A stretch of DNA of 63,028 nt from Candidatus Paraprevotella stercoravium. Lineage in GTDB: Bacteria > Bacteroidota > Bacteroidia > Bacteroidales > Bacteroidaceae. A program made the position numbers and the translations under genes. Where the stretch lies: the NCBI GenBank assembly GCA_944320795.1, contig CALUIU010000017.1, positions 1 through 63,028 on the forward strand, given 5' to 3'. Positions 27,782 to 61,145 of the stretch are shown in pieces. The stretch's first letter is position 1. Each line of letters begins with the position of its first letter. The notes beneath the pieces are model-generated. The model did no database searches and was not told where the DNA came from. It saw only the letters and a program-made list of their open reading frames with translations.

Positions 27782-27970
27782 ATGGAATATAACAAAGCAT
27801 TCTTTGAAAAAGTTTTCTCTACGAAGAGGATGGAAAGATATTTCAGGCTTTTGCAGGATGTGCTTAAAGTATGCCGCTATACTGTAGGTTGCGATACACC
27901 AAAAGATTCAGAACAGTTCGTGCTGATGAAAAAGAGAGTGTGTGTTAAAAAAATAATGACTACTCCCTGA
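27782..27970 (+). pseudogene. Possible N-terminal remnant of an Abi-like protein
   Basis: The 62-codon frame starts MEYNKAFFEKVFSTKRMERYF, which resembles the conserved start of Bacteroidetes Abi-type proteins (pattern M-YN--FE--FS--RM-RYF). The similarity fades within about 40 codons, and the frame ends at 27970 inside the edge of repeat copy B. Full-length relatives are several hundred residues, so this would be a fragment. Family attribution is from memory of the motif and is weak. It might equally be a short orphan gene or noise. Confidence 0.25.
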
Positions 27971-28110
27971 AGTTACAGATTGTAACTATAATATTTAAAA
28001 GGACCGTATCAAACTCTGTATGGAGTCATGATGCGGTCCTTTCTTAAGTCTTTTAAGGTGCCCAAATTTCAATTTATAAGTTCATCTTTTCAAAAAATGA
28101 ATTTTGACAC
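27964..28110 (-). repeat. Palindromic dispersed repeat, copy B (about 147 bp)
   Basis: Read on the minus strand, this matches the element at 60997-61145 along its whole length with about 23 differences by hand alignment. It also matches the right part of copy A. It has the inverted repeat AAGGACCG-ATCA...TGAT-CGGTCCTT (28000-28042) and GTTACAGATTGTAAC (27972-27986). It begins 14 bases after the asnB stop codon and could end that transcript. Confidence 0.85.
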
Positions 28111-28123
28111 ATTTTCTTTTTGT

Positions 28124-29791
28124 TTATTCGTAAGCTTCTTCGTGAACACCCTTCACGGCTCTTCCGCTCGGGTCGTTTTTGCCTTGGAAAGAAGCATCCC
28201 ATGCCAGTGCTTCGGCGGTAGAGCAGGCTACGCTTGGTACACTCGGCACACTGCGTGCGGCGCTTTCGCTCGGGAAGTGTTCTTCAAAAATGCTGCGGTA
28301 ATAGTATTCCTCCTTGTTCTGTGGCGGGTTGATCGGGAAGCGTTCGGCTGCATGGACCATTTCTTCGTCGCTTACCGCCTGAGCTGTCATTTCTTTCAGT
28401 GTGTCAATCCAGGAGTAGCCCACACCGTCGGAGAACTGTTCCTTCTGTCGCCAAGCCACGGATGCCGGAAGCATGTCGGCAAAGGCTTCGCGCAGCACGC
28501 GCTTTTCGATTTCCTGACCGGGACACATTTTGGATGCCGGATTCAGGCGCATGGCCACGTCCAGGAACTCTTTGTCAAGGAAGGGGACACGGCCTTCGAC
28601 ACCCCAGGCCGAGAGTGATTTGTTGGCGCGCAGACAGTCGTAAAGATGCAGTTTGGAGAGCTTGCGCACGGTTTCTTCGTGAAAGGCCTGTGCGTTTGGC
28701 GCTTTGTGGAAGTAGAGATAACCGCCGAAAACCTCATCGGCACCCTCGCCGCTGAGCACCATCTTGATGCCCATGCTCTTGATGACGCGGGCCAGCAGGT
28801 ACATCGGCGTAGAGGCACGCACGGTGGTCACATCATAGGTTTCTATGTAATAGATCACATCGCGGATGGCGTCGAGTCCCTCCTGAATGGTGTAGTTGAT
28901 TTCATGATGCACGGTTCCGATATGATCGGCCACCTCGCGGGCCTTGGCCAGATCGGGGGCTCCCTTCAGACCCACAGCGAACGAATGGAGTTGCGGCCAC
29001 CAGGCTTCGTTCCGGCTGTCGCTTTCAATGCGGCGTGAAGCGAATTTCTTGGCCACGGCCGAGATGATGGAACTGTCCAGACCGCCTGAAAGCAGCACGC
29101 CATAAGGCACATCGCTCATCAGCTGGCGCTTGACGGCTTCTTCGAGTGATTCCTTCAGTGCCGGAACACTGGTGGGCGCATCCTTTACGGCGGCATAGTC
29201 AAACCAGTCGCGTTCGTACCAGCGGGTCATCTTGCCTTCGCGGCTCCAGTAGTAATGTCCCGGAAGGAAAGGCTCATAACGCTCGCAGAATCCTTCAAGC
29301 GCTTTCAGTTCGCTGGCGCAGTACACGGTGCCGTCTGCATCATACCCGATATACAGTGGAATGACTCCGATCGGGTCGCGCGCAATCAGAAATTCGTCTT
29401 TCTCCTCGTCATACAGGGCAAAGGCAAATATTCCGCTCAGGTCTTCCAGAAAGCGGATACCTTTTTCGCGGTAGAGGGCCAGTACCACCTCGCAGTCGGA
29501 GCCCGTCTGGAAAGGATATTTCCCTTCGTAGCGGTTGCGTATGTCGCGATGGTTGTAAATCTCGCCGTTCACGGCCAGAATCTGTTTCCGATCGGGCGAG
29601 AACAGGGGTTGCCCGCCGCTTTGCGGGTCCACGATCGAGAGGCGCTCGTGCGCCAGAATGGCGCTTTTGCCACAGTAAATGCCACTCCAGTCCGGACCGC
29701 GGTGACGGATCTTGGCCGACATCCGCAGCGCCTTGTCGCGTAAGGCTTTGGACTGCTCCTTGATATTGAATATTGCTACGATTCCACACAT
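28124..29791 (-). CDS. asnB: Asparagine synthase B (glutamine-hydrolysing)
   Basis: The 555-residue protein begins MCGIVAIFNI, so Cys2 becomes the N-terminal nucleophile of the class II glutaminase domain (about 1-200, with RHRGPDWSGIY, LAHERLSIVDP and NGEIYNH). The synthetase domain has the PP-loop LLSGGLDSSIISA near residue 235, then GEGADEVFGGYLYF. It makes asparagine from aspartate, ATP and glutamine-derived ammonia. It follows gltD by 24 bases and is last in gltB-gltD-asnB, which fits joint control by nitrogen supply. Confidence 0.97.
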   Translation of the reverse strand: MCGIVAIFNIKEQSKALRDKALRMSAKIRHRGPDWSGIYCGKSAILAHERLSIVDPQSGGQPLFSPDRKQILAVNGEIYNHRDIRNRYEGKYPFQTGSDCEVVLALYREKGIRFLEDLSGIFAFALYDEEKDEFLIARDPIGVIPLYIGYDADGTVYCASELKALEGFCERYEPFLPGHYYWSREGKMTRWYERDWFDYAAVKDAPTSVPALKESLEEAVKRQLMSDVPYGVLLSGGLDSSIISAVAKKFASRRIESDSRNEAWWPQLHSFAVGLKGAPDLAKAREVADHIGTVHHEINYTIQEGLDAIRDVIYYIETYDVTTVRASTPMYLLARVIKSMGIKMVLSGEGADEVFGGYLYFHKAPNAQAFHEETVRKLSKLHLYDCLRANKSLSAWGVEGRVPFLDKEFLDVAMRLNPASKMCPGQEIEKRVLREAFADMLPASVAWRQKEQFSDGVGYSWIDTLKEMTAQAVSDEEMVHAAERFPINPPQNKEEYYYRSIFEEHFPSESAARSVPSVPSVACSTAEALAWDASFQGKNDPSGRAVKGVHEEAYE

Positions 29792-29815
29792 AGTTGTTCG
29801 TGTTTATGTTGTTGG

Positions 29816-31183
29816 TTATAAGATGCGTGTTTGTGTTGTTTGTTTCTTGAGATAAGCGTCGATATCGCGTGCGGCCTTGCGTCCGCCGGCAATACATTTC
29901 ACGACCAGACTGGCACCGGTGGCGGCATCGCCTGCCACGAACACGTTTTCCGGTAGTTCCGGAAGGTTGTTCTTCAGGAAGCCCATGGCCAGCAGAACGA
30001 GGTCGGCCTTGAGTATCTCTTTCTTTCCGGTAGGCTGCATGGTGGGGCGCCCGCCGGGTTCTGCAGAAGGTATCCATTCCACTTCTTCCACTTCCATGCC
30101 GGTGACATGTCCGTTCTCGCCCAGAAAACGGTTGGTGGTCAGTGACCAGCGACGGGTACAGCCTTCTTCGTGGCTGGAGCTGGTCTTGAGCACTACGGGC
30201 CATTGTGGCCACGGGGTGGCCGGATTGTGGCCAACGGGCGGTTTGGGCATGATCTCGATCTGGGTTACGCTGGCGGCTCCGTGGCGGTTGCTGGTACCGA
30301 TGCAGTCGCTTCCCGTATCGCCACCGCCGATGACAACGACATGCTTGCCGCGTGCCTGGATGCGTTCCTCGTCGCTGAAATGCTGTCCGGCCAGTACGCG
30401 GTTCTGCTGGGCCAGCATCTCCATGGCCAGATGGATTCCCTTCAGTTCACGGCCCGGCACATTCAGGTCGCGGGCCTGCGGGGTACCGGTACATACGCAG
30501 TAGGCATCGAAGCCTTCGGGCAGACGGGCGAGGTCGATTTCGGTATTTGGCTGGAAACGGATGCCTTCGGCCTCCATGATCTTGAGACGGCGGTCGATCA
30601 CGGCCTTGTTCAGCTTGAAGTTCGGAATACCGAATCGGAGCAGTCCGCCGATATATTCCAGTTTTTCGAATACGGTTACTTCATAGCCCATGTGGTTCAG
30701 CTGGTTGGCGGCGGCAAGTCCGGCCGGTCCGGAGCCGATGACAGCCACTTTCTTTCCGTTGCGGGCATAGGTCTTGGGCTGCACATATCCTTCGCGGAAG
30801 GCCGCCTCGATGATGGCGCACTCGTCTTCGCGGATGGTTACGGGAGCGTCCATGCTCAGTTTCAGCACGCAGCTCTTTTCGCAGAGTGCCGGGCAGATGC
30901 GTCCGGTAAACTCCGGAAAGTCGTTGGTGTCGTTCAGTATCTCGTAGGCCTCTTTCCATTTTCCCTTGAACAGGGCATCCTGGAACTCAGGCGGGCGGTT
31001 GCCCAACGGGCAGGCCCAGTTGCAGAACGGCACTCCGCAGTCCATGCATCGGGAAGCCTGTAACTTGCGTTCTCCGGTGTTGAGGGTCTGCTCTACTTCT
31101 GCAAAGTCCGTAAGACGTTCGTGAATGCTGCGATAGCCCGCAGTCTGGCGCGGTATGGTTAAGAATGCTTTTGGATTTCCCAT
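29816..31183 (-). CDS. gltD: Glutamate synthase small (beta) subunit
   Basis: The 455-residue protein has the N-terminal Fe-S segment CMDCGVPFCNWACPLGN and a later CPALCEKSC, then an FAD motif VIGSGPAGLAAANQL (about 147-161) and an NADPH motif VVIGGGDTGSDCIGT (about 285-300). It ends with NVFVAGDAATGASLVVKCIAGGR. It passes electrons from NAD(P)H to the large subunit, which reduces 2-oxoglutarate plus glutamine to two glutamates. The gap to gltB is 66 bases, so the two are cotranscribed. Confidence 0.97.
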   Translation of the reverse strand: MGNPKAFLTIPRQTAGYRSIHERLTDFAEVEQTLNTGERKLQASRCMDCGVPFCNWACPLGNRPPEFQDALFKGKWKEAYEILNDTNDFPEFTGRICPALCEKSCVLKLSMDAPVTIREDECAIIEAAFREGYVQPKTYARNGKKVAVIGSGPAGLAAANQLNHMGYEVTVFEKLEYIGGLLRFGIPNFKLNKAVIDRRLKIMEAEGIRFQPNTEIDLARLPEGFDAYCVCTGTPQARDLNVPGRELKGIHLAMEMLAQQNRVLAGQHFSDEERIQARGKHVVVIGGGDTGSDCIGTSNRHGAASVTQIEIMPKPPVGHNPATPWPQWPVVLKTSSSHEEGCTRRWSLTTNRFLGENGHVTGMEVEEVEWIPSAEPGGRPTMQPTGKKEILKADLVLLAMGFLKNNLPELPENVFVAGDAATGASLVVKCIAGGRKAARDIDAYLKKQTTQTRIL

Positions 31184-31249
31184 GATTCTTGTGATGTTTT
31201 TTTGTGGGTTGATGATTCTTTTTTGAAACTCTCTTGGGGCGGCTGCCGG

Positions 31250-34200
31250 TTAATAGTCGCGCTGAACGGCTTCGATCTTTTCCTTCAGCTTGGCCATTTG
31301 TTCCTCGGCCAGCACACTCTTGTACTCAATCGGGGTGACCTGAATGAACTGGTCGGCATACTGTTCCCAGTGCTCCAGCATATCCTTGGCCAGCGGTGAG
31401 CCGGTGTGTTCGTAATGCTTGCGGAGCAGTTCCTTGACTTCTTTCACCGAAGATTTGTGTTCCAGAAGAGAAAGCTCTACCATTTCCATATTGCAGAAGT
31501 AGTCGAAGTCGCCTTTCTTGTTCCACACATAGGCAATACCGCCACTCATTCCGGCTGCAAAGTTTCTTCCGGTTTCGCCCAGAACGAGCACGCGTCCGCC
31601 GGTCATATACTCACAGCAGTGGTCGCCGGCTCCTTCTACCACGGCGATGGCTCCTGAATTGCGCACGGCAAAACGCTCGCCGGCCTGTCCGTTGATGTAG
31701 ACCTCGCCACTGATGGCACCATATAACAAGGTGTTTCCGGCAATGATGTTCTGCTCGGGAGCAAAATCGCTCTGGCGGTCCGGATAAACGGAGATGACAC
31801 CTCCGCTCAGTCCCTTGCCCAGATAGTCGTTGGCCTCGCCTTCGAGCTTGAAGTGGATGCCGTGGGCCAGGAAGGCTCCGAAGCTTTGTCCGGCTGAGCC
31901 GCGGAAGGTGACACGGATGGTTTCGTCGGGCAGTCCGGCATGACCGTACTGCTTGCATACGGCTCCCGACAGCATGGTTCCGGCCGAACGGTCGGTGTTC
32001 CGGATCGGGTATTCCAACTCTATTGGGGTTTGTCCGTCGATGGCAGGCTGCGCGTCGGCCAGAATGCGGCGGTCCAGCACTGTGTCGATTTCATGTTCCT
32101 GCTCGGTGCAGTGGCAGATGGCGGCATCGGTATCCACACGGTGCAGCAGACGGCTGAAGTCCACCAAAGCCGCCTTGCTTCCTTCCTCTCGCGGTTTGAT
32201 TTCGATCAGGTCGGTGCGTCCCACAATGTCCTCCAGACGGGTGAATCCCATCTCGGCCAGATATTCGCGCACTTCCTGAGCCAGGAATTCAAAATAGTTC
32301 ACCAGATACTGATAGTGTCCGCGGAAGCGTTCACGCAGTTTCGGGTCTTGGGTGGCCACACCCACCGGGCAGGTGTTGGCGTGGCATTTGCGCATCATGA
32401 CGCAACCCAATACAATCAGTACCGTGGTTCCGAAGGCAAACTCTTCGGCACCCAGAAGCGCCATGCTGATGATGTCGCGTCCGGTCTTGATCTGACCGTC
32501 GGTCTGAAGGCGCACCTTGCCGCGCAGTCCGTTCAGGACGAGGGTCTGTTGGGTTTCGCTCAGGCCGATTTCCGGAGAGATTCCGGCATAGCGCATGGAT
32601 GAGGCCGGTGATGCGCCGGTTCCTCCTTCGGCACCCGAGATGACAATCAGGTCGGCCTTGGCTTTGGCCACACCGGCGGCAATGGTACCCACACCGCTTT
32701 CTGCCACCAGCTTGACGCTGATTTTGGCCTGAGGATTTATATTTTTCAAATCGAAGATAAGTTGTGCCAGATCCTCGATAGAGTAGATGTCGTGATGAGG
32801 TGGAGGGGAGATGAGCGAGATGCCCGGGATGGAATGACGGGTCTTGGCAATGACCTCGTTCACCTTGAAACCCGGAAGTTGTCCGCCTTCGCCCGGCTTG
32901 GCTCCCTGGGCCACCTTGATCTGTATTTCTTCGGCATTGACCAGATATTCGGCGGTGACACCGAAACGTCCCGAAGCCACCTGTTTGGTCTTGCTGTTGA
33001 GCGAAATGCCGTCGTAAGTTTCATGGAAGCGGTCGCTGTCTTCGCCACCCTCGCCGGTGTTGCTTCGTCCGCCCAGTTTGTTCATGGCCAGCGCAAGAGC
33101 CTCGTGCGCTTCCTTGCTGATGGCGCCGAAGGACATGGCACCGGTTACAAAGTGCTTCACAATCTCCGAAACGGGCTCAACCTCGTCAATGCTGATCGGG
33201 TTGCGCTTGAAGCTGAAGAAGTCACGCAGGAATATCGGGTGTTCCTTCTCGTTGGCCAGCTGGGTGAATTCCTTGAACTTCTTGTAGCTGCCCAGACGGG
33301 TGGCCAGTTGCAGGCTGGCGATGGTTTCCGGATTCCAGGCGTGCTGCTCGCCCCCCTTACGGTAAGAGAACTGACCGATGTAAGGCAACAGGTCTTCCTG
33401 TTCGTGGGTGTGGCAGAAGCCGTCATCATGGAAGAACAGATAGTCTTTGGCAATCTCTTTCAGTCCGGCTCCGCCGATGGTGGAGATTTCGGTGCCGAAA
33501 TAATTCTTCAGGACGCTCTCGCTGAGGCCCACAGCCTCGAATATCTTGGCGCCGCGGTAAGAACGGATGGTGCTGATACCCATTTTGCTCATCACCTTAT
33601 ACAGGCCCTTGCAGATGGCCTTGATATAGTTCTTCTCGGCGGTTTCGTAGTTCATCTGTACTTCGCCTTTCTTCACCAGATCGTCCAGCACGGCAAAGGC
33701 CATGTATGGATTTATGGCGCTGGCACCATAGCCCAACAACAGGGCGGCATGCATCACTTCGCGCACTTCGCCGCTCTCAACAATCAGGGCGGTTTGCAGG
33801 CGCTTCTGCGCCCGGATGAGGTGATGGTGCACGGCACTCAGGGCGAGCAGTGACGGAATGGCGGCGTGCTGTTCGTCCACGCCGCGGTCGGACAGGATGA
33901 TGTAGTTGGCGCCGCCGGCAATGGCTTCCTCAGCTTCGTGGCAGAGTTCCTGCAGGCGCTGTTCCAGTCCGTCGGTACCCAATGCGGTGTCGAACACCAT
34001 TTGCAGTTTGGTGCACTGGAAGCCTTTGTAACGGATGTTGCAGAGGATGTCCAGTTGCGTGTTGGTCAGTATCGGGTGGGGCAGGCGTACCATTTTGCAG
34101 TGTGTGCCGCTTGGAGTCAGAATGTCCTGACCGATGGCCCCCACATATTCGGTGAGCGACATGACCAGTTCCTCGCGAATCGGGTCGATGGCCGGGTTGG

Positions 34201-35791: not shown

Positions 35792-35832
35792 ATTATCATG
35801 TGTTTGTTTATTATCCTGTCTAAATGTCTTTG

Positions 35833-35840
35833 CAAAGATA
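35833..35840 (-). promoter_or_regulatory. -7 box of the gltB-gltD-asnB operon
   Basis: CAAAGATA on the plus strand reads TATCTTTG on the minus strand, an exact and common form of the Bacteroidales -7 box. It is 42 bases upstream of the gltB ATG. The -33 region has GTTTAAT rather than a clean TTG. Confidence 0.55.
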
Positions 35841-36095
35841 ACGGATGACAGTCGATTAAACGGTTTTACGTCTCAAATAAATGTTACATTCAGGAACAAG
35901 GTTACTGTTTGTAATCAAACGGGCATTATCTATAAGAAATTATTGTCTGTTTGCCTTGGTTGACTTATATTCCTTAACTTTCTTTTTTCCGCTTTTTGAT
36001 TTGTTGTGCTGAATCTTGGTTATCTAAAAAATGATTTTTCTGAAAAATAGTTCGTAAAAAATTGTTTTTGCTGTCTTTATGAATGGAATAATCCG

Positions 36096-36103
36096 TATCT
36101 TTG
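36096..36103 (+). promoter_or_regulatory. -7 box of the PurF-like gene
   Basis: TATCTTTG is an exact -7 match. It places the transcript start near 36110 and so rules out the in-frame ATG at 36079 in favour of that at 36133. The -33 element is not clear. Confidence 0.55.
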
Positions 36104-36132
36104 TGGCAAAATATAAAACATTTATAGACGAT

Positions 36133-38109: not shown

Positions 38110-38126
38110 GGCATATCAAATCAAGA

Positions 38127-51425: not shown

Positions 51426-51806
51426 TGCTTCTGAATATAAAGACTTGTATAACCATAAAGCAGGCGGAAATCGTATATCGGGTTCCGCCTGCTTTGCTTA
51501 TGTTCGGCTACATTCTTCTTTCTTTGGAACAAGAGCGGCCTGTGTTTTACGTTCCTTTCTGACTGAAGCTGTTACTTTACGGATACACAGTCTTTAATAT
51601 AGGATATTGGCGTTTTGGGCTGGCTATTTGTTGCCGATATTTAAAAATATAGTTGCAGGTTGCTCCAATTAGATTCATAGATTTATTTAAACCGGTAATT
51701 AAACCAAACTTTATTTTTGTGGTCTAATTATTAAAATCATCCTTACGATAAGGGTGATTGCCGGATTGCGTATATATTTATGGATAAACTTTAATATGAA
51801 AAAATC
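51426..51806. other. Intergenic region between the hexosaminidase and the small basic protein
   Basis: After the terminator, about 310 bases hold no credible gene. A -7-like TATTTTTG at 51712-51719 points at the gene starting at 51807, about 88 bases downstream. No -33 TTG was seen. Confidence 0.4.
51457..51495 (+). terminator. Terminator of the hexosaminidase gene
   Basis: AAAGCAGGCGGAA (51457-51469) pairs perfectly with TTCCGCCTGCTTT (51483-51495). The following T content is modest. Confidence 0.75.
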
Positions 51807-52253
51807 ATGAGAATCAGAATTTGTATGTTAGGAATGGCCCTTTTCTTTGGGGGAGTAAGTGAAGGAGGACTATTGTCTCTTTCTGCGGCAGAAACAGCTC
51901 AGGTGGTAACGCGCGGTAAACCGGGACGACCGGATAGAGATCGCTATGATCATCACCGCAAAGAGTATAAGAAAAGGAAAGATCATCACATCAAGAAAAT
52001 TCCTCCGCACTATACCAAAGTGTACCATGGAAAGAAATGCTATTACTATCATGACGGCTTCTATTATCGTCCGTGTTCCGGAGGTTATTATGAACGCTTC
52101 CGCCCCTTTATCGGTATGATAGTACCTGTATTGCCCCGAAGGGTACACGTGGTGCATCGTCATGGACAAGAGTACCTGGTTTGTGAAAGAATACTCTATA
52201 AAAGAATTTATACCCGCAATGGTTTCCGTTATAAAATTATAGGATTTGTGTAA
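51807..52253 (+). CDS. Small exported basic His/Tyr-rich protein (DUF6515-like)
   Basis: The 148-residue protein has a signal peptide (about 1-28) and a charged linker rich in Arg, Lys, His and Asp. The core YYYHDGFYYRPCSGGYYERFRP, then GMIVPVLPRRVHVV and GQEYLVCERILYKRI, resembles a Bacteroidetes DUF6515 type of periplasmic domain, though I cannot confirm it. The pI should be strongly basic. It may bind an anionic polymer or metal (inference). It is followed by a strong bidirectional terminator. Confidence 0.65.
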   Translation: MRIRICMLGMALFFGGVSEGGLLSLSAAETAQVVTRGKPGRPDRDRYDHHRKEYKKRKDHHIKKIPPHYTKVYHGKKCYYYHDGFYYRPCSGGYYERFRPFIGMIVPVLPRRVHVVHRHGQEYLVCERILYKRIYTRNGFRYKIIGFV

Positions 52254-52261
52254 AAAGAAAA

Positions 52262-52300
52262 GAAGATGCCCCGAAGTCAGTTGACTTTCGGGGCATCTTC
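52262..52300. terminator. Bidirectional terminator between convergent genes
   Basis: GAAGATGCCCCGAA (52262-52275) and TTCGGGGCATCTTC (52287-52300) are perfect complements, extended inward by GTCA...TGAC with one bulged base. It separates the small basic protein from PFOR. Confidence 0.9.
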
Positions 52301-52325
52301 ATTATTTGAGTTATGTGAATTCTAA

Positions 52326-55300
52326 TTATTCAGCAACCTTCTCGTCGCTCCAGTCCATGGCAGCCATACGCTTGTATGAAGCGTAGCGCTTCTTAGCCAT
52401 ATCCTCGCAAGCGTTGAACAGGTCAGCAGCCTCAGTAGGATACTGTTTCATTACAGAAGCGAAACGAACCTCGCCCTTCAGATAATCCTGGAATGCCTCC
52501 CATTTCGGCTCCTTAGAGTCGAGTGAGAACGGATTCTTGCCTTCATCTTCCAGAGTTGGGTTGAAGCGCCACAAGTGCCAGTAACCGCACTCAACAGCAG
52601 CAGCCTCTTCAGCCTGAGATTTACCCATACCCTTCTTCAAACCGTGGTTGATACATGGAGCATAAGCAATGATGATAGATGGTCCAGGATAAGCCTCTGC
52701 CTCACGGATAGCCTTCAAGCACTGAGCCTGGTCAGCACCCATAGCGATCTGAGCTACGTAAACATAACCGTAAGTTGTGGCAATCATACCCAGGTCTTTC
52801 TTGCGTACGCGCTTACCAGAAGCAGCGAACTTAGCGATAGCACCCAGAGGAGTAGCCTTAGATGACTGACCACCGGTGTTAGAGTAAACCTCAGTATCCA
52901 GAACCAGGATGTTTACATCCTCACCAGAAGCGATTACGTGATCCAAACCACCGTAGCCGATATCGTAAGAAGCACCGTCACCACCGATAATCCACTGTGA
53001 GCGTTTTACCAAGTAGTGGCTCAACTCTGACAGCTTAGCGCATGATGGGCATCCGGCAGCCTTGCCAGCCTCGATCTGTGGAACCAGCTTCTCTGCAGCA
53101 GCCTTGCTTGCGTCTGCATCGTCCTTACCGTCGATCCATGCCTGTGCAGCTTCCTTGAACTCTGCTGGAGTGTGCTCAGAAGCGATAGCCTCGTTCAGGA
53201 TAGCCTCGATGCGGGCACGCATCTTCTTGTTGGCCAATACCATACCCAAACCGAACTCGCAGAAGTCCTCGAACAAAGAGTTAGCCCAAGCCGGACCCTG
53301 ACCCTTAGCGTTGGTAGTGTAAGGAGTTGATGGGATAGAACCAGAGTAGATAGAAGAACATCCGGTAGCGTTGGCGATGATCTCACGGTCACCGAACAAC
53401 TGAGAAATCAACTTCACGTATGGAGTTTCACCACAACCAGAGCAAGCTCCTGAGAACTCGAACAATGGCTGAGCGAACTGAGAGTTCTTCACGTTAGACT
53501 TGATGTCTACCAGATCCTGCTTGCTGGTTACGTTCTTCACGCAGTATTCCCAGTTTGGAGCCTCGTCCAATTCCTGCTCCAGAGGAACCATAGTCAGAGC
53601 CTTGCCCAACTTCGGATTACCCGGACAAACATCGGCACAGTTACCGCAACCCAAGCAGTCCATAACGCTTACCTGAATACGGAAGTTCATGCCCTTCATA
53701 GCGGCAGGAGCCTTCATTTCCAGAGTATCAGCGCTGAAGTCAGCCTTCTCGTCTGCATTCAGAACGAATGGACGGATAGCAGCGTGAGGACAAACGTAAG
53801 CACACTTGTTACACTGGATACAGTTTTCTGCATTCCAAGTCGGAACGAATGCAGCTACACCACGCTTCTCATAAGCGGCAGTTCCCTGTGGCCAAGTACC
53901 GTCTTCGATACCCTTGAATGCTGAAACCTTCAACAGGTCACCATCCTGAGCATTGATAGGACGAACTACTTCGTTGATGAATGCAGGATCGTCGTTTGCT
54001 GCAGCAGCGTCAGCCTCCAGAGAAGCCCATGCCGGATCAACAACCAGTTCCTTGTACTCACCACCGCGGTCAACAGCAGCGTAGTTCTTGTTTACAACGT
54101 CTTCACCCTTCTTACCGTAAGACTTCACGATGAACTTCTTCATCTGCTCAACAGCCAAGTCTACTGGAATGACACCAGTGATACGGAAGAATGCAGACTG
54201 CAGGATGGTGTTGGTACGGTTACCCAAACCGATTTCCTGAGCGATCTTGGTTGCGTTGATATAGTAAACCTTGATATTGTTCTTTGCAAAGTAAGCCTTA
54301 ACCTTGTTAGGCAGGTTGTTTGCCAATTCCTCGCCTTCCCAGATTGTGTTCAGCAAGAAAGTACCGTTCTTCTTCAAACCGCGAGTTACATCGTACATGT
54401 TCAAATAAGCCTGTACGTGGCAAGCTACGAAGTTCGGAGTATTTACCAAGTAAGTAGAACGGATAGGATCATCACCGAAACGCAGGTGAGAGCAAGTGAA
54501 ACCACCAGACTTCTTAGAGTCGTAAGAGAAGTAAGCCTGACAGTGCTTGTTGGTGTTGTCACCGATGATCTTCACTGAGTTCTTGTTGGCACCTACAGTA
54601 CCGTCAGCACCCAAACCGTAGAACTTAGCCTCGAACATACCTTCGCCGCCAACTGCGATCTCTTCGCCCTGAGGCAGAGAAGTGAAGGTTACGTCGTCTA
54701 CGATACCCAGAGTGAAGTGGTTCTTTGGTTCTGGCAAGGCCAAGTTCTCGTATACAGCCAGAATCTGAGCTGGAGTAGTATCGTTTGATCCCAGACCATA
54801 GCGTCCGCCCACGATAACAGGAGCATTCTCCTTGCCATAGAAAGCTTCCTTGATATCCAGGTACAGAGGCTCTCCGTGAGCACCCGGCTCCTTGGTACGA
54901 TCCAATACGGCGATCTTCTTCGCAGTAGCAGGAACAGCATCCAGGAAGTGTTTAACAGAGAATGGACGATACAAGTGTACGGCAACCAAACCGACTTTCT
55001 GTCCCTGAGCATTCAGGTAGTCGATAGTTTCGCGGATAGCTTCGGTTACAGAACCCATAGCGATGATGACGCGGTCTGCATCCTCTGCTCCGTAGTAAGT
55101 AAACAAACCGTACTTACGGCCAGTGATTTCAGAAATCTTGTTCATGTAATCCTCAACGATTGCAGGAACTGCGTCATAGTAAGGATTGCAAGACTCACGG
55201 TGAGTGAAGAATGTATCCGGGTTCTCGGCCATACCGCGAGCAACTGGATGCTCTGGAGACAGGGCACGGTTGCGGAATTCGCTCAGAGCCTCCTGGTCAA

Positions 55301-55889
55301 CCAGTGGAGCCAAGTCGTCGTTCTCCAACATTTCGATCTTCTGGATCTCGTGTGAAGTACGGAAACCGTCGAAGAAGTTCAGGAATGGAACGCGGCTCTT
55401 GATAGTAGACAAGTGAGCTACACCGGCCAAGTCCATAACTTCCTGTACGGAACCCTCGCACAACATAGCGAAGCCAGTCTGACGGCAAGACATCACATCC
55501 TGATGGTCACCGAAGATACACAGAGAGTGAGAAGCCAGAGTACGGGCAGATACATGGAATACGCATGGCAACAATTCACCAGCAATCTTATACATGTTCG
55601 GGATCATCAGCAACAAACCCTGAGAAGCAGTGTAAGTTGTGGTCAAAGCACCTGCCTGCAAAGAACCGTGAACAGCACCGGCTGCACCGCCTTCTGATTG
55701 CATTTCCTGAACCAATACAGTTTCGCCAAAGATGTTCTTACGTCCCTGAGCGGCCCATTCGTCAACATATTCAGCCATTGTTGAAGATGGGGTGATCGGA
55801 TAGATCGCTGCTACTTCTGAGAACATATATGAAATATGTGCAGCAGCCTGATTACCATCACAAGTGATGAATTTTTTTTCTTTTGCCAT
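52326..55889 (-). CDS. nifJ: Pyruvate:ferredoxin (flavodoxin) oxidoreductase
   Basis: The product is 1187 residues from the ATG at 55889 (MAKEKKFITCDGNQAAAHISYMF), the typical start. The upstream ATG adds an implausible hydrophobic leader. Domains in order: pyrimidine-binding (IYPITPSSTMAEYVDEW), transketolase C-like, gamma domain, two 4Fe-4S clusters (CIQCNKCAYVCPHA and CLGCGNCADVCPGNP), then the TPP domain (SGACSGCGETPYVKL, ATGCSSIYSGS, GDGASYDIGYGGLDH). It oxidises pyruvate and CoA to acetyl-CoA, CO2 and reduced ferredoxin, a central fermentative step. It is a single-chain form of normal length, 53 bases downstream of the AAA ATPase gene. Confidence 0.98.
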   Translation of the reverse strand: MAKEKKFITCDGNQAAAHISYMFSEVAAIYPITPSSTMAEYVDEWAAQGRKNIFGETVLVQEMQSEGGAAGAVHGSLQAGALTTTYTASQGLLLMIPNMYKIAGELLPCVFHVSARTLASHSLCIFGDHQDVMSCRQTGFAMLCEGSVQEVMDLAGVAHLSTIKSRVPFLNFFDGFRTSHEIQKIEMLENDDLAPLVDQEALSEFRNRALSPEHPVARGMAENPDTFFTHRESCNPYYDAVPAIVEDYMNKISEITGRKYGLFTYYGAEDADRVIIAMGSVTEAIRETIDYLNAQGQKVGLVAVHLYRPFSVKHFLDAVPATAKKIAVLDRTKEPGAHGEPLYLDIKEAFYGKENAPVIVGGRYGLGSNDTTPAQILAVYENLALPEPKNHFTLGIVDDVTFTSLPQGEEIAVGGEGMFEAKFYGLGADGTVGANKNSVKIIGDNTNKHCQAYFSYDSKKSGGFTCSHLRFGDDPIRSTYLVNTPNFVACHVQAYLNMYDVTRGLKKNGTFLLNTIWEGEELANNLPNKVKAYFAKNNIKVYYINATKIAQEIGLGNRTNTILQSAFFRITGVIPVDLAVEQMKKFIVKSYGKKGEDVVNKNYAAVDRGGEYKELVVDPAWASLEADAAAANDDPAFINEVVRPINAQDGDLLKVSAFKGIEDGTWPQGTAAYEKRGVAAFVPTWNAENCIQCNKCAYVCPHAAIRPFVLNADEKADFSADTLEMKAPAAMKGMNFRIQVSVMDCLGCGNCADVCPGNPKLGKALTMVPLEQELDEAPNWEYCVKNVTSKQDLVDIKSNVKNSQFAQPLFEFSGACSGCGETPYVKLISQLFGDREIIANATGCSSIYSGSIPSTPYTTNAKGQGPAWANSLFEDFCEFGLGMVLANKKMRARIEAILNEAIASEHTPAEFKEAAQAWIDGKDDADASKAAAEKLVPQIEAGKAAGCPSCAKLSELSHYLVKRSQWIIGGDGASYDIGYGGLDHVIASGEDVNILVLDTEVYSNTGGQSSKATPLGAIAKFAASGKRVRKKDLGMIATTYGYVYVAQIAMGADQAQCLKAIREAEAYPGPSIIIAYAPCINHGLKKGMGKSQAEEAAAVECGYWHLWRFNPTLEDEGKNPFSLDSKEPKWEAFQDYLKGEVRFASVMKQYPTEAADLFNACEDMAKKRYASYKRMAAMDWSDEKVAE

Positions 55890-55942
55890 AATATTAAATA
55901 TTATTAGATAGTATAGTAGTTGTCTGTAACTTCTTGGTTTGA

Positions 55943-57121
55943 TTAGTACAAGAATCCGAAGAGCCAAAGCGGAATCTGTTTTCCGTGACCGATTTCCATT
56001 TGGTGGCAGGCATAGATGACATCGTTCTTTTTCTTCTTGACATCATCGGCGCAAACCTTGATGCGGAGTGAGCCGTCCACCAGAAAAGAGCAGTCTTTGT
56101 CTCCCTTGTTCACCTTGTGGTCTTTCCACAGGGTGTTCTGCAGGAATGTTTCCAGAATGTCTTTCAGTTCCATCCGGTTGGGGTAGATGGCATAAATCAG
56201 ATTCGGATTATGCATCATGATCTTGGCCGGTTTTTTGGGGAACGCCTGATTCTTGGGATAGATCATATTGATGAGCCGTGCATCAGCCAGATATTTCAGG
56301 TAATTCATGACTGTGGCCCGCGAAGTCTGTATCTCGGAAGCCAGCTGACTGACGTTGGGTGTCACCGGGCTGTCTATCGCGAGCAAATATAGTAACTTTT
56401 TGATTTTGGCCAAATATTTCAGCTCAATTTGTTTGATTAATAAAATATCCACTTCCAGCATCATGTTCATGGTCTTGAGCAGATTCTCTGAAAAGTTGCG
56501 CTTTTCCAAAAAGAACGGATAGAAACCGTGATGGATATAGTGCTGAAAATGAGTGAGCGGACTGGCTTTCGACAGGATGTGTCGGGCTATCTGCTCGTGG
56601 TCTTCGAGAATTTCCTTCAAGGTGTAGGAGCGGAACTCATTGCCGGTTTGCAGATTCAGAAACTCACGGAAAGAGAAGCCGCGCAGGTTGTAGGTCTTGA
56701 CCAGACCGTTCAGCTCCGGATTTTCTTCTTTCAGGCGCATGACCGAAGAACCGGTGAACACGATTTTCAGATTGGGGAGTTCGTCGTAGCATTTGCGGAG
56801 CTCGCTGCTCCAGTTCGGCTGTTTGAACACCTGGTCAATCAGCAGTACCCGTCCGCCGGATTCGTAGAATTCACGGGCGAAGTCGGCGATGCCACGTCCT
56901 TGGAAGTAGAAGTTGTTCATGTTGACAAACAGACACTTGCGGTCGGAAAGGCGGAAGTGCTCTTTGGCATATTGAAGCAGGAAGGTGGTTTTGCCCACAC
57001 CTCGTGTGCCTTTGATACCAATGAGACGGTCATTCCAGTCTATTTCGTCCATCAAAGCTCTCCGTACGGGCACATTCAAGTGCTCTACCAGATAAGCATG
57101 TGTTCTGAAAAATGTCTCCAT
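55943..57121 (-). CDS. AAA_14-type ATPase with altered Walker B
   Basis: The 392-residue protein starts with an ATPase core: Walker A GTRGVGKTT (38-46), then Walker B VLLIDQVFKQPNW (Asp96-Gln97) and sensor-like IVFTGSSVMRL. RGFSFREFLNLQTGN marks this Bacteroidetes ATPase family, usually with a DUF4143-like C-terminal part. The usual catalytic Glu after the Walker B Asp is Gln here. A winged-helix-like segment around VSQLASEIQTSRATVMNYLKYLADA (about 258-282) suggests DNA or partner binding. Function is unknown. A good promoter precedes it. Confidence 0.85.
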   Translation of the reverse strand: METFFRTHAYLVEHLNVPVRRALMDEIDWNDRLIGIKGTRGVGKTTFLLQYAKEHFRLSDRKCLFVNMNNFYFQGRGIADFAREFYESGGRVLLIDQVFKQPNWSSELRKCYDELPNLKIVFTGSSVMRLKEENPELNGLVKTYNLRGFSFREFLNLQTGNEFRSYTLKEILEDHEQIARHILSKASPLTHFQHYIHHGFYPFFLEKRNFSENLLKTMNMMLEVDILLIKQIELKYLAKIKKLLYLLAIDSPVTPNVSQLASEIQTSRATVMNYLKYLADARLINMIYPKNQAFPKKPAKIMMHNPNLIYAIYPNRMELKDILETFLQNTLWKDHKVNKGDKDCSFLVDGSLRIKVCADDVKKKKNDVIYACHQMEIGHGKQIPLWLFGFLY

Positions 57122-57144
57122 AAATTTTTGTTTCTTACATCATG

Positions 57145-57175
57145 CAAAGATAGTGTAAAACTACAAAAATGCAAA
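57145..57175 (-). promoter_or_regulatory. Promoter of the AAA_14 ATPase gene
   Basis: Minus strand: TTTG (57175-57172), 19-base spacer, TATCTTTG (57152-57145). This is one of the best consensus matches in the window. The start codon is 24 bases downstream. It overlaps closely with, and faces away from, the plus-strand promoter at 57182-57213. Confidence 0.75.
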
Positions 57176-57181
57176 GTAGAG

Positions 57182-57213
57182 TTGGCAAAATATTTATGTT
57201 TTTTCTAAATTTG
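57182..57213 (+). promoter_or_regulatory. Promoter placed directly on the ATP-grasp start codon
   Basis: TTG (57182-57184), 21-base spacer, TAAATTTG (57206-57213). The -7 box ends 5 bases before the ATG at 57219, so transcription should start at or within a base or two of the start codon. This predicts a leaderless mRNA. Confidence 0.65.
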
Positions 57214-57218
57214 CACTT

Positions 57219-58409
57219 ATGAAGCTATTTGTATTTAATCCCGAGAATGATTTGGCGTTGGCCAACAATCAGTGGAACTTTATCGCTCCGGCTTCGGCGC
57301 GCAAAATGCGTCTGGATCTGGAGATATTGCCCGTGTGGTGGACGTCCGCTTTGGATCGGGTGTGGGTGAGCCGTTATCCGGTTCATCAACCGTTGGAGTT
57401 CCTGTCTTTGAATGATCGCTTTGTCGTTCATCCCGGCGACTGTCCGCTAGGTTCTGTAGAGCCTTGGGGATGGAGCCCGCTTATCAAATCTCAGTTGCAA
57501 CGAGGAGGCGTGGACGATTCGTTGTTACCCGATGAGGAACAGTTGCGTATTTTCCGGGAATATTCCGGCAGAGGATTTGCCGTAACCGTTTTGCAGAAAC
57601 TCCGTTCGGCAGCCGCAGCTCATGCCTGTTGGGACGATGCGTTGTGTGGTCGTTCGTACTATTGCACTACGACAGAGCAGATTGATGCTTTGTTCCGGCA
57701 ATATCCGCGTACCATTTTGAAGGCTCCATGGTCGGGTAGCGGTAAGGGACTACGCCTCGGACAACCGCAGTTGCAACCGCCTCTTACCGGATGGTGCACT
57801 CGTCTGATCCGCGAGCAGAGAGGGGTTGTAGTGGAACCACTATATAATAAGGTGTGCGATTTTGCCTGTGAGTTCCGTTCCGATGGTCAGGGGCATGTCT
57901 GTTATGAGGGACTTTCGCTCTTTACCACGACTCATCAGGGAGCTTATGCCGGAAATGTGGTGGCTCCGGAAAGCGAAAAAGAAAAGATTCTGGCCCAGTG
58001 GCTCGACCTCAGACTTCTGGATTGGGTGTGCTGCGAATTGAGCCGTCTTTTGAGCGACACTTTGGGAACGGCCTATAGCGGTCCGTTGGGAGTGGATATG
58101 ATGGTCTGTCGGTCGGACGACGGGCGCTTTCTGCTGCATCCGTGTGTGGAGATCAATTTGCGCATGACCATGGGAATGGTAGCCTTGGAGCTACAGCGCT
58201 GGCTGGCTGAAGGTGTACAGGCCCGTTACTATATAAATTATTCCTCCAATGGCGAAGAACTGAAGAAACGGGCTCTGGAAGATGCCGAATGCAGACCGCC
58301 GCGTTTTCTTGACGGAAAGTTGGTTGACGGGTGTCTGTCGCTCACTCCGGTTTATTCCGATACCAATTACCGGGCTTGTCTTGTCGTGGAGTCTGCCGAA
58401 AGCGAGTGA
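57219..58409 (+). CDS. Unrecognised ATP-grasp-like protein
   Basis: I do not recognise the exact family of this 396-residue soluble protein. Visible ATP-grasp-like elements are ILKAPWSGSGKGLRLG (about 166-181, a nucleotide-binding Gly-rich loop after a Lys), VVVEPLYNKVCDFACEF (about 205-221), GPLGVDMMV (about 288-296) and HPCVEINLRMTMGMV (about 306-320), with the E-x-N-x-R pattern that binds Mg-ATP. ATP-grasp enzymes join carboxylates to amines or thiols. The N-terminal 160 residues (MKLFVFNPENDLALANN...) would bind the partner substrate. The N-terminus is firm because the promoter abuts the ATG. No peptide-precursor gene was seen nearby. Confidence 0.75.
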   Translation: MKLFVFNPENDLALANNQWNFIAPASARKMRLDLEILPVWWTSALDRVWVSRYPVHQPLEFLSLNDRFVVHPGDCPLGSVEPWGWSPLIKSQLQRGGVDDSLLPDEEQLRIFREYSGRGFAVTVLQKLRSAAAAHACWDDALCGRSYYCTTTEQIDALFRQYPRTILKAPWSGSGKGLRLGQPQLQPPLTGWCTRLIREQRGVVVEPLYNKVCDFACEFRSDGQGHVCYEGLSLFTTTHQGAYAGNVVAPESEKEKILAQWLDLRLLDWVCCELSRLLSDTLGTAYSGPLGVDMMVCRSDDGRFLLHPCVEINLRMTMGMVALELQRWLAEGVQARYYINYSSNGEELKKRALEDAECRPPRFLDGKLVDGCLSLTPVYSDTNYRACLVVESAESE

Positions 58410-58450
58410 AGTGCTGTTCTTGAGTGCGGGAGATAAAAATATCGCATTGC

Positions 58451-58482
58451 TTTTTGCTTCTGTGCAGAAAAGCATATCTTTG
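58451..58482 (+). promoter_or_regulatory. Promoter of msrA
   Basis: TTTTTG (58451-58456) and TATCTTTG (58475-58482) are separated by 18 bases. The msrA ATG is 26 bases downstream. Confidence 0.6.
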
Positions 58483-58508
58483 CAGACTGGAAGATAAAAA
58501 CTAGATTA

Positions 58509-59003
58509 ATGGAAAATGAAAGATTGGAAACAGCCATCTTTGCAGGAGGCTGTTTTTGGGGAATGGAGCATATGATGCGTAAGTTTCCGGGAGTAAAATC
58601 CGTGATGCCGGGATATATCGGTGGACATAAAGACCATCCTCGCTATGAGGAAGTAAAGGCACACACTACCGGTCATGCCGAGGCGGTGCGTGTACAGTTT
58701 GATCCTTCGGTAGTCAGTTTTGAGGAACTGGCCCGCTATTTCTTTGAGATTCACGATCCGACACAGACCGACGGTCAGGGTCCAGACCTGGGTCCGCAGT
58801 ATCGTTCGGAGATTTTCTATACCAGTGAGGAGCAGAAACAGGTTTCTGAGAAACTCATTGCCATTCTGAAGGAAAAGGGATATGATGTCGTCACCCGTCT
58901 GACTCCGGCTACAGAGTTCTGGACAGCTGAAGAGTATCACCAGAACTATTATGCCAAGACCGGTGAGGAGCCTTATTGCCATATTTACAAAAAGCGTTTT
59001 TAA
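58509..59003 (+). CDS. msrA: Peptide-methionine (S)-S-oxide reductase
   Basis: The 164-residue protein has the MsrA active site AGGCFWGMEHMM with nucleophile Cys15. GYIGGHKDHPRYEEV, GHAEAVRVQFDP, FFEIHDPTQTDGQGPDLGPQYRS and the E-x-YHQNYY motif complete the family. It repairs oxidised methionine in proteins, using thioredoxin. It has no signal peptide and no MsrB fusion. A resolving Cys near the C-terminus may be the one in EEPYCHIY. The GlsB-like gene follows by 12 bases, probably cotranscribed. Confidence 0.96.
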   Translation: MENERLETAIFAGGCFWGMEHMMRKFPGVKSVMPGYIGGHKDHPRYEEVKAHTTGHAEAVRVQFDPSVVSFEELARYFFEIHDPTQTDGQGPDLGPQYRSEIFYTSEEQKQVSEKLIAILKEKGYDVVTRLTPATEFWTAEEYHQNYYAKTGEEPYCHIYKKRF

Positions 59004-59015
59004 AGATACAAGGAT

Positions 59016-59240
59016 ATGATTACCGGAATTATCAGCGGCATTCTGGCCGGATATGTGGCCAGCCGTATTCATAAGGGACAGGGCAGCGGTTGCCTCACCA
59101 ACTTGTTCTTGGGACTGATTGGCGGTCTGATTGGAGGATGGCTGTTCAGTCTGGTAGGTCTGGAAGCCTACAGCTGGTTGGGCGAGATGGTTACCGCCAT
59201 TGTCGGCGCTGTCATTCTGCTTTGGATTTTTTCAAAATAG
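59016..59240 (+). CDS. GlsB/YeaQ/YmgE-family small membrane protein
   Basis: The 74-residue protein shows the family's three hydrophobic segments: MITGIISGILAGYVASRIHKG, GCLTNLFLGLIGGLIGGWLFSLVG and MVTAIVGAVILLWIF. Members are inner-membrane proteins linked to general stress, without a defined biochemical role. Pairing with msrA suggests an oxidative or envelope stress context. Confidence 0.9.
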   Translation: MITGIISGILAGYVASRIHKGQGSGCLTNLFLGLIGGLIGGWLFSLVGLEAYSWLGEMVTAIVGAVILLWIFSK

Positions 59241-59334
59241 ACACTGGAAATAGTTTTGAATAAAAGAAATATTTTTTCTGTATGAAAACGAAGAGTTTCT
59301 AAAAGAAATATATTTTTAATGAATGGAAGAATAA

Positions 59335-59384
59335 GGGCCGCATCAAACTTGTAACTTCACGGCAAGTTTGATGCGGTTCTTTTT
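59335..59384 (+). terminator. Terminator related to the palindromic repeat family (variant D)
   Basis: AAGGGCCGCATCAAACTTG pairs with CAAGTTTGATGCGGTTCTT, a 19-bp stem with two G-T wobbles around an 11-base loop, followed by TTTTT. The outer half (GGGCCGCATCA...TGATGCGGTTC) matches the stem of repeat copies A-C with paired changes, but the flanks do not match those copies. The remaining gap from 59241 to the MATE gene has only the -7 box at 59552-59559. Confidence 0.7.
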
Positions 59385-59551
59385 TATGATAGCCGTTCCT
59401 TCGCCGAATCTTCAAAACAGAATATTGGGGATTGGGATTTTCATGCTTTTGAGGTTTGTCTTTTCATATTCCTGTTCGACATTAGAAAAAATGAATTGCG
59501 AAAAAAACAGAAAATCCAGGCCTTTATTCCTCAGAATCCTTTTTAAACCTG

Positions 59552-59559
59552 TAACTTTG
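59552..59559 (+). promoter_or_regulatory. -7 box of the MATE transporter gene
   Basis: TAACTTTG fits TAnnTTTG. It places the transcript start near 59566, favouring the ATG at 59591 over that at 59570. No clear -33 TTG. Confidence 0.5.
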
Positions 59560-59590
59560 CCGAAATTTTATGGTAAAAACAGGTAAGAAG

Positions 59591-60967
59591 ATGAGTCAGG
59601 ATGTAAGCGTGAAGCGCTCTCAGAGCAATGAGATCGATATGCTTCACGGACCTTTGTTGAAGAAAATACTGCTTTTTGCCCTTCCTTTGGCGGCAAGCAG
59701 TTTGTTACAGGAGTTGTTTAATTCGGTTGATGTGGCTGTGGTGGGCCATTTTGTTGGTAGCAATGCTTTGGCCGCTGTGGGTAGCAATGCGCCGGTCATC
59801 GGTTTGCTGATCAATCTGTTTGTCGGCGTATCGATGGGAGCCTGTGCCGTATTGTCGCATCATATCGGTACGCAGAATGTGGAGCGCATCCGCCGTACGG
59901 TCAATACCGTTGGCCTGGTTGCCCTGATCAGCGGAATCTTTCTGCTCTTTTTGGGATGGGTAGGCGCTCGTCCGATTCTCACCTGGATGGGTACTCCGCC
60001 CGATGTGCTTCCGGATGCCGTGATGTATCTGCGCGTGTATTTCTTGGGTATGCCGTTTATTATGATCTTCAATTTCGGCTCTGCCATCTTGCGCAGTGTG
60101 GGGGATACACGCCGTCCACTTTATATTCTGGTGGCTGCCGGAGTACTGAATACGGTTCTGAATCTGATTTTTGTGGTGTTCTTTCAGTTAGGAGTGTTGG
60201 GAGTGGCCATTGCCACTGGCTTTGCGAATCTGCTGAGTGCTTTGCTTATTATCCGTGTCTTGCGCCATGAAGACGAGCCTTACCGACTTCATTTTGATCA
60301 GATGCGTATCCATACACGGGAGTTGGCTCATATGCTCCGTATCGGTCTTCCGGCCGGAGTGCAGGGAGTTATCTTCTCCATTTCCAATGTCGTGGTGCAG
60401 TCATCCATCAACGGTTTTGGTTCCGATGCCATTGCCGGATCGGCTGCGGCGCTTAATTTTGAATACTATTGCTACTTCATTATTCAGGGATTCAATGGAG
60501 CTGCCATCAGTTTTATTGCCCAAAACTACGGTGCCGGAAAGTTGGACCGCGTGCATCGTGTATTCTGGATCTGCATGGGACTGAGTGTCCTGTTCTGCGG
60601 AACTTTCAATATCATCTTTGCCACTTGGAGCGATTTTTTCCTGAATTTCTTTTCAGAGACTTCTGGTGTACACCAGTATGGCCGTATTCGTATGCATATT
60701 GTATTGGCCTTGCAGTTTTTGGCTTGCAGCTATGAGATTGCCGGTTCCAGCATGCGTGGTATGGGATGGTCGCTCACTCCGGCGGTACTGACCATATTCG
60801 GTACTTGTCTGCTTCGTATCGTGTGGGTGTATTTCATGACGCCACAGTGGGGCAGCTTCAATGCGCTGATGCTGGTTTATCCGGTATCGTGGTTGCTGAC
60901 CGGTTCGATGGTTGTAATCGCCTACTGGCTGGTGGTGCGAAGAAAGAGAAAACCAATGACTGCTTGA
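59591..60967 (+). CDS. MATE-family multidrug efflux transporter
   Basis: The product is 458 residues from the ATG at 59591 (MSQDVSVKRSQS...), which follows AGGTAAGAAG. An ATG seven codons upstream would leave almost no leader. Twelve membrane helices form two similar halves. The MATE features are LLKKILLFALPLAASSLLQELFNSVDVAVVGHFVG at the start of half one, GVSMGACAVLSHHIGTQN, and, in half two, IGLPAGVQGVIFSISNVVVQ with AAISFIAQNYGAG. It would export cationic compounds using Na+ or H+. Repeat copy C follows its stop codon. Confidence 0.94.
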   Translation: MSQDVSVKRSQSNEIDMLHGPLLKKILLFALPLAASSLLQELFNSVDVAVVGHFVGSNALAAVGSNAPVIGLLINLFVGVSMGACAVLSHHIGTQNVERIRRTVNTVGLVALISGIFLLFLGWVGARPILTWMGTPPDVLPDAVMYLRVYFLGMPFIMIFNFGSAILRSVGDTRRPLYILVAAGVLNTVLNLIFVVFFQLGVLGVAIATGFANLLSALLIIRVLRHEDEPYRLHFDQMRIHTRELAHMLRIGLPAGVQGVIFSISNVVVQSSINGFGSDAIAGSAAALNFEYYCYFIIQGFNGAAISFIAQNYGAGKLDRVHRVFWICMGLSVLFCGTFNIIFATWSDFFLNFFSETSGVHQYGRIRMHIVLALQFLACSYEIAGSSMRGMGWSLTPAVLTIFGTCLLRIVWVYFMTPQWGSFNALMLVYPVSWLLTGSMVVIAYWLVVRRKRKPMTA

Positions 60968-60996
60968 TGTGGTCTGCTGATAAATACTCGAGGGCA

Positions 60997-61145
60997 TGTC
61001 AAAACTTATTTTTTGAGAAGATGAACTTTTAATTTAAAATTTGGGCATCTTAAAGACTAAAGAAAGGGTCATATCATTACTCAATATAGAGTTTGATACG
61101 ACCCTTTAAATATTATAGTTACAATCTGAAACTTTGAGGATTTGT
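60997..61145 (+). repeat. Palindromic dispersed repeat, copy C (about 149 bp)
   Basis: This full-length copy lies between the convergent MATE and GH10-like genes. It holds TGTCAAAA at the left end, the segment ATTTTTTGAGAAGATGAACTT and ATTTGGGCATCTT. The inverted repeat AAGGGTC-TATCA...TGATACGACCCTT follows at about 61064-61106, then GTTACAATCTG-AAC near the right end. It is about 84 percent identical to copy B by hand count. It is the only candidate terminator between the two genes. Confidence 0.85.

Follow-up and report, generated by a model that had tools for sequence, protein, structure and literature searches.

The DNA analysed here, called the window, is the whole of contig C17 (CALUIU010000017.1; 63,028 nucleotides) of the draft genome of Candidatus Paraprevotella stercoravium (2.84 Mb, 61 contigs). 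It contains three copies (A, B and C) of an intergenic repeat, which is probably a miniature inverted-repeat transposable element (MITE) of about 181 bp that is mobilised by IS1182-family transposases, replaces terminator stem-loops and brings a hairpin of its own. Being gene-less, the MITE would borrow the transposase of ISBf3-related elements of the IS1182 family via shared ends of 16-17 bp. Like staphylococcal IS1272, it would land on stem-loop-forming DNA without a target sequence, in practice on terminator hairpins at gene 3′ ends, and the target hairpin would be removed without target-site duplication. Since the MITE carries a strong central hairpin itself, neighbouring genes would most likely keep a terminator and insertion should cost little. 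Old copies would then be retained as terminators through paired mutations.

Anatomy and dispersal of the repeat

A dispersed repeat of about 147 bp had been proposed in the initial annotation of the window. Its repetitive nature was confirmed with copy C as query: copy B aligned in opposite orientation with 86% identity over positions 8-145 of 161, and copy A, of which only the right part matched, with 87% identity over positions 70-160. From copies A and C, a gapped pattern of 45 nt was written for the central palindrome; with up to three mismatches it matched these two and not copy B, and it occurred in none of 100 shuffles. The 147 bp turned out to be the inner part of a longer unit. Alignment of the copies in the genome of the window (G000; genomes compared bear G-numbers, fetched loci L-numbers) and the ends of full copies defined a unit of about 181 bp, which is bounded by terminal inverted repeats (TIRs) of 16-17 bp, GAGGGTGTGTCAAAAC. 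Comparison among copies revealed that one end reads GAGGRTGTGTCAAAAY, with the complement at the opposite end, and the TIRs of young copies are GAGGGTGTGTCAAAACT...AGTTTTGACACACCCTC. The interior harbors a strong central hairpin, with an outer stem of 14 pairs followed by an inner stem of 4 pairs (ACTC/GAGT), as well as a GTTACAATCTGTAAC palindrome. The right-hand GTTACAnnnTGTAAC palindrome of the earlier description is present, but lies inside the unit rather than at an end.

With the 181-nt consensus as query, 16 distinct places were found in G000 at E≤0.001, and copy C as query added three (C38:10355, C2:75660 and C36:25926), mainly via the hairpin. Sequence outside the ends could not be aligned between copies, which rules out a segmental duplication. 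The two findings named beforehand as counter-evidence, few copies and duplicated flanks, were both absent. The copies differ in age, as nine full copies in G000 match the consensus at 148-161 of the 181 positions. In G015, one and the same 181-bp sequence stands at two different sites, two copies in G003 are 98% alike, and near-identical copies in relatives occupy unrelated sites. The TIRs, the short, gene-less and multi-copy unit, the unrelated sites and a full-length partner with matching ends within the genus (see below) leave its membership among MITEs, one of the classes suggested at the outset, well supported. Target-site duplication, a usual though not universal feature of MITEs, was not found: adjacent direct repeats of at least 3 nt stood at 1 of 24 copies of a sister family in G015, and no consistent duplication was seen. 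Such a lack is expected for IS1272-type elements according to two studies (PMC5678879, PMC4923244).

The central hairpin

An alignment of 32 copies, 29 of them distinct, had pairing in 92.1% of the stem cells. Double changes were observed at 9 of 18 pairs and amounted to 27 cells, compared with 9.3 ± 3.0 in shuffles and at most 5 in slid controls. Out of 49 listed element hits 42 had been kept, the seven dropped being four opposite-strand palindrome hits, the G004 orthologues L240 and L243, and L016; ten of the 42 (L034, L127, L326, L071, L057, L070, L328, L332, L036 and L333) were excluded from the alignment for indels or weak scores, which favors the pairing counts. Conservation in the nine G000 copies differed modestly, from 82% in the TIRs, the lowest value, through 83-88% in other parts and 86-88% in the stem arms to 93% in the loop. 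Hairpin-only remnants were present at some gene ends. Position, structure and replacement of other hairpins point to a terminator function of the central hairpin.

Not all data fit a hairpin that is kept by selection. The copies are related, so that counts of paired changes overstate independent events, and 8 of 500 shuffles contained at least as many further pair types as the real alignment. A simple terminator rule (GC-containing stem, loop of 3-8, then at least 5 T in 8 bases) matched none of the copies A, B and C, the one match found being 28155-28176 outside copy B. A simple T-run terminator was rejected for the window copies on this ground. A known RNA family was likewise rejected, as Rfam 15 gave no match in the window at gathering score; in five loci it gave nine matches at E≤1, of which none lay inside an element and none reached the gathering score.

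There is perhaps one chance in four, in our estimate, that the element is mobile while selection does not maintain its hairpin as a terminator; the paired changes would then stem from template switching that corrects imperfect palindromes, or from a few inherited subfamily changes. The shuffles, which ignore relatedness, and the negative terminator scan speak for this possibility, as do two of 27 copies (L041 and L064) in which no strong internal hairpin was scored, and stem arms whose conservation scarcely exceeds that of some other regions. It is opposed by the spread of double changes over half of the pairs with few such cells in the slid controls, by TIRs that are less conserved than any other part while the loop is conserved best, and by the hairpin-only remnants that persist at some gene ends.

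Relationship to IS1182-family elements

A complete transposase was found in G014, which scored 460 bits with NF033551 (IS1182; cut-off 270) and sits between the ends GAAGTTGTGTCAAAAC and GAGGTTGTGTCAAAAC of an insertion sequence (IS; positions 635-2478). It is 96-97% identical to the transposases of three Bacteroides plasmids. Two of these are annotated as ISBf3, and their elements, when fetched, carried the same ends as the G014 IS. In G015, a carrier of the 181-bp element, IS1182 transposase fragments lie next to GAGGTTGTGTCAAAAC ends, and the 181-bp copies there have GAGGTTGTGTCAAAAC as their left end, too. Because the 16-17-bp ends are shared, the MITE would be mobilised in trans by an IS1182 transposase. 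IS-like ends with GAGGGTGTGTCAAAAT are located in or near contig starts or stops of G000, G003 and G004; the partner IS of G000 is therefore likely to have been left unassembled.

Several results weigh against this partnership. Neither NF033551 nor a search with the G014 protein detected an IS1182 transposase in G000, and no match to the 181-bp element was obtained in G014, the sole genome with a complete transposase. NF033551 matched 6 of 18 genomes, one of them above the cut-off, and the G014 protein matched 3 of 18. IS pieces with these ends were seen together with the 181-bp element in G015 only.

Three plasmid-borne elements were inspected for their flanks. An IS1182-like element with the ends GAGGCTGTCTCAAAA on the Phocaeicola massiliensis plasmid OY726042.1 (L341:575-2368) lies between the arms of a perfect inverted repeat of 13 bp, AAAAATATGAAAA/TTTTCATATTTTT, as would be expected had it landed inside a terminator hairpin and removed just the inner part. 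The ISBf3 copy on the Bacteroides fragilis YCH46 plasmid pBFY46 (L340:632-2480, approximate) is directly flanked by AAAAATAT and ATATTTTT, which may represent the outer part of the stem of a hairpin that was replaced. The flanks of an ISBf3 copy on a B. ovatus plasmid (L339) show nothing of this kind.

Target sites

To judge from simple open reading frame (ORF) calling, 23 of 35 sites lie between convergent, nine between codirectional and two between divergent genes, with one unclassified. The 18 sites in G000 are convergent (12) or codirectional (6), none is divergent, and a gene 3′ end lies within 39 nt of every one. The earlier idea of a mobile terminator agrees well with these positions. 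Against it, two of the three G017 copies stand between divergent genes.

Empty counterparts of the sites were sought in G004, a close relative of G000 (protein identities of 95% and 99% for two genes tried). Both flanks were found there without the element for copies A and B and for L054, L060, L064, L067, L069, L070, L017 and L016. At nine of these ten sites, G004 has an ordinary long hairpin of unrelated sequence. At the place of copy A, downstream of a peptidase gene, an ordinary hairpin was seen by eye in all 12 relatives displayed (the gene was found at cut-off in 15 of 18 genomes, and 13 loci, G000 included, were displayed). Other species likewise have hairpins where five younger copies are located in G003, G015 and G016. 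At carrier sites, a scripted search detected a strong hairpin outside the element within 150 nt in one of 27 cases, with or without ORF limits, the control being 3 of 200 random 120-mers. By these comparisons, the empty site is a stem-loop without sequence consensus, which is lost without duplication when the site is filled, as in IS1182/IS1272-type insertion. The flanks of sister-family copies pair mutually above permuted flanks over 4 nt (p=0.0044; p 0.004-0.007 over 4-6 nt).

All comparisons of filled and empty sites are between species, except for one within the single assembly of G015. The left ends of the IS in G015 read GAGGTTGTGTCAAAACGTTGGCACAACC and then TTTTTTCATAG. On contig C127, the same T run and IS interior follow directly after the end of a sister-family copy, which takes the place of the IS-end hairpin. 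The between-species comparison together with this within-genome case supports replacement as the mode of insertion, and we infer a cut-and-replace chemistry. That the element stands where relatives have a different hairpin had escaped the initial annotation, as had the TIRs and the IS with the same ends.

A number of observations weigh against replacement. A hairpin at a gene end is to be expected in relatives anyway. G004 lacks a hairpin at L016, where the match in G000 covers the hairpin alone, and at L047, a sixth site of a younger copy, two of three relatives have none above threshold. L064 is the one carrier site of 27 that keeps a strong hairpin, and G004 has two hairpins there. Further hairpins missed by the script stand beside the element at L054 (with a long loop) and, weaker and seen by eye, at L067. 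A strong hairpin also lies within 100 nt of 5 of 25 sister copies, flank pairing fades by 10-12 nt (p 0.10-0.12), and contig C127 stops 51 bp beyond the element in a fragmented assembly. The edges of the element gave a divided result: 16 of 50 compared by script aligned well (z≥2.5) and 11 of these lay within 8 nt of the foot of the relative's strongest hairpin, against which stand the 34 edges that could not be aligned well, the five alignable ones more than 8 nt away, a z cut chosen after the values had been seen and estimated edges in decayed copies.

The match for copy B is loose on one side, where about 450 bp to the left do not align with G004. Two comparisons were not counted, that of the G017 copies with G009 and that of the G014 IS with G012, as other repeats overlie the flanking sites or the orthologues are unclean. 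The flanks of L039, L046 and L115 match their own genome only, those of L055 match weakly elsewhere, and L053 is without a usable relative. L059 and L061 have no match in G004, L041, L063 and copy C match with one flank only, and L019 and L022 were outside the G004 query.

An ordinary MITE might also accumulate near gene ends, insertions elsewhere being selected against, and remove no hairpin at all; the hairpins of relatives would then reflect a fast turnover of terminators. Terminator-like hairpins do vary between many species even without the element, which indicates fast turnover, and hairpins persist near L064, L054 and the five sister copies. We nevertheless regard this explanation as improbable in view of the 26 carrier sites without a strong hairpin outside the element, the alignable edges that coincide with a hairpin foot, the copy on C127 exactly in place of an IS-end hairpin and the lack of a consistent target duplication. 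Bare hairpin repeats or repetitive extragenic palindromic (REP) sequences moved by a REP-associated (RAYT/Y1) transposase, another class named initially, share the strong central palindrome, the intergenic location and the many copies, but fit poorly and were rejected on anatomy alone as a most improbable explanation, given the unit of about 181 bp and paired TIRs common to IS1182-family elements.

Distribution and related elements

Ten of 61 genomes searched match the element, namely G000, seven congeners (G003, G004, G009, G013, G015, G016 and G017, with a match of just 39 nt in G009), G019 of another genus of the same family and G048 of another family (32 nt). The TIR pattern with up to one mismatch was found in 14 of 18 genomes of the genus, and its reversed control gave three matches overall. 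Two of 12 named genomes tried had matches, one being identical to G003 at the checked locus and the other Bacteroides caecigallinarum ET21. The latter contains a single full-length copy (L322:1501-1681) with 92% identity to a G003 copy, which, being in another genus, was probably acquired by horizontal transfer. Related stretches occur in six plasmid records of Bacteroides, Parabacteroides and Phocaeicola and in three phage records. A partial relative lies between annotated genes of Bacteroides phage BS-TP3 (L338:2001-2143), which could serve to carry it from one genus to another. Viral contigs yielded no match to exact patterns written for two IS-like ends and for the hairpin.

Two loci contain more than one copy. 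A whole and a partial copy stand in tandem at one gene end in G000:C30:20037-20380 (L054:1497-1840) with another hairpin between them, possibly after repeated insertion into one terminator. In G016:C41:75510-77665 (L127), two oppositely oriented copies at adjacent gene ends are separated by about 1.8 kb.

Similar ends also bound other short elements. The sister family of G015 has similar TIRs and a different interior (25 fetched copies of 180 bp each, two distinct sequences), and short elements with related ends and different interiors were found in G013 and G017. A 150-bp element in G013 (L125:365-514) has the TIR GAGGGTGTGTTAAAAT and another long palindrome, CATTTCGACAGAGCGAAGCGACGAGAAATCTC, as interior. 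GC-rich 'CTCCTCCGCCTTGTAGGGGAGG' repeats, some with related TIR bounds, are very abundant in G009, at many places, and in G017 (L128, L122 and L123). Solo hairpins of 25-33 bp consist of two TIRs back to back, often amid A- and T-rich sequence; five distinct ones fit a strict pattern in the fetched loci (Table 1). The one at L135, beside an IS1182 pseudogene, may be an IS end, and the other four might represent minimal elements or scars, or else ordinary terminators.

Table 1. Copies of the element in the window, their central hairpins and solo TIR hairpins in other genomes. The names of the MATE-type and asparagine-synthase-like genes were read from translations, the former without a family search.
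Feature	Position	Strand	Remarks
Copy C	60990..61168	+	179 bp, essentially full-length; TIRs 60990-61006 and 61152-61168; between convergent genes, a MATE-type efflux protein gene (stop ends 60967) and gene 61190-62953 (-)
Copy B	27934..28116	-	183 bp, full-length; adjoins 3′ end of asparagine-synthase-like gene 28124-29791 (-)
Copy A	~11747..11892	+	decayed; left part lost sequence, left edge estimated; central hairpin and right half recognisable; adjoins directly 3′ end of C1-type peptidase gene 11910-13115 (-)
Central hairpin of copy C	61063..61107	+	AAAGGGTCATATCA...TGATACGACCCTTT; candidate two-way terminator
Central hairpin of copy B	27998..28042	-	
Central hairpin of copy A	11789..11833	+	sole strong hairpin found within 150 nt of the element
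Solo TIR hairpin, G006	L092:1501-1533		
Solo TIR hairpin, G012	L095:1501-1525		
Solo TIR hairpin, G005	L103:1487-1516		
Solo TIR hairpin, G013	L107:1501-1533		
Solo TIR hairpin, G006	L135:1335-1364		beside IS1182 pseudogene

Discussion

The repeat represents a new family of MITEs with ties to IS1182/ISBf3-type elements, most likely a mobile terminator that replaces terminators. It would extend stem-loop-replacing transposition, which has been detailed for staphylococcal IS1272 and TnSha1, to a gene-less element in gut Bacteroidales. A transposon that removes a terminator but supplies another suggests a near-harmless strategy, and it offers a testable route for the turnover of terminators and for the entry of mobile repeats into gene regulation. 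Related stretches on plasmids of Bacteroides, Parabacteroides and Phocaeicola and in phages suggest possible spread between genera.

A more far-reaching proposal is tentative, and we consider it more doubtful than not. The terminators of this lineage might form a mobile gene pool, in which transposon ends, landing sites and the only cargo of the MITE are all terminator hairpins. Insertions would swap terminators and be a main engine of their turnover, and old copies would be domesticated by paired mutation. If so, the units would range from solo end-hairpins of 25-35 bp via MITEs of 180 bp to full IS1182 elements.

Our literature search retrieved IS1272 and TnSha1 and no IS1182-linked MITE with hairpin replacement, a weak negative given that subscription papers were mostly outside the search. 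Among known repeats, REP sequences and bacterial interspersed mosaic elements (BIMEs) with REP-associated tyrosine transposases (RAYTs) are, like the present element, intergenic palindromes near gene ends. Unlike it, they have no TIR-bounded 181-bp unit and depend on a different transposase class. The MITEs of Porphyromonas gingivalis (BrickBuilt, MITEPgRS and MITE239) are also intergenic elements of Bacteroidales, some of them near terminators; their TIRs are tabulated beside IS5-family ISPg elements, and one site keeps its natural terminator (PMC4596501). A large survey lists IS1182 among the families over-represented between convergent genes (PMC9208149); it covers ISs, whereas the present element is a gene-less derivative with replacement. 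ISBf3, an IS1182-family element of Bacteroides, has the outer ends GAGGTTGTGTCAAAACG. It differs as a full IS of about 1.85 kb, both ends of which are themselves palindromes of about 30 bp, and by eye it has no sequence in common with the MITE beyond the 16-17-bp ends.

The closest parallel is provided by the staphylococcal IS1182-family elements IS1272 and TnSha1. As described in two reports, they have inverted repeats of 16 bp, target a stem-loop without sequence consensus and remove or replace the hairpin upon insertion without target duplication; RNA-seq showed several of these hairpins to be terminators, and four IS1272 copies very near genes were all immediately downstream of them (PMC5678879, PMC4923244). 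The present element resembles them in the similar length of its ends, the replaced stem-loop, the lack of duplication and ends shared with members of the same IS family. The two staphylococcal elements carry a transposase gene, and TnSha1 also fabI, whereas the unit described here is gene-less and brings its own hairpin.

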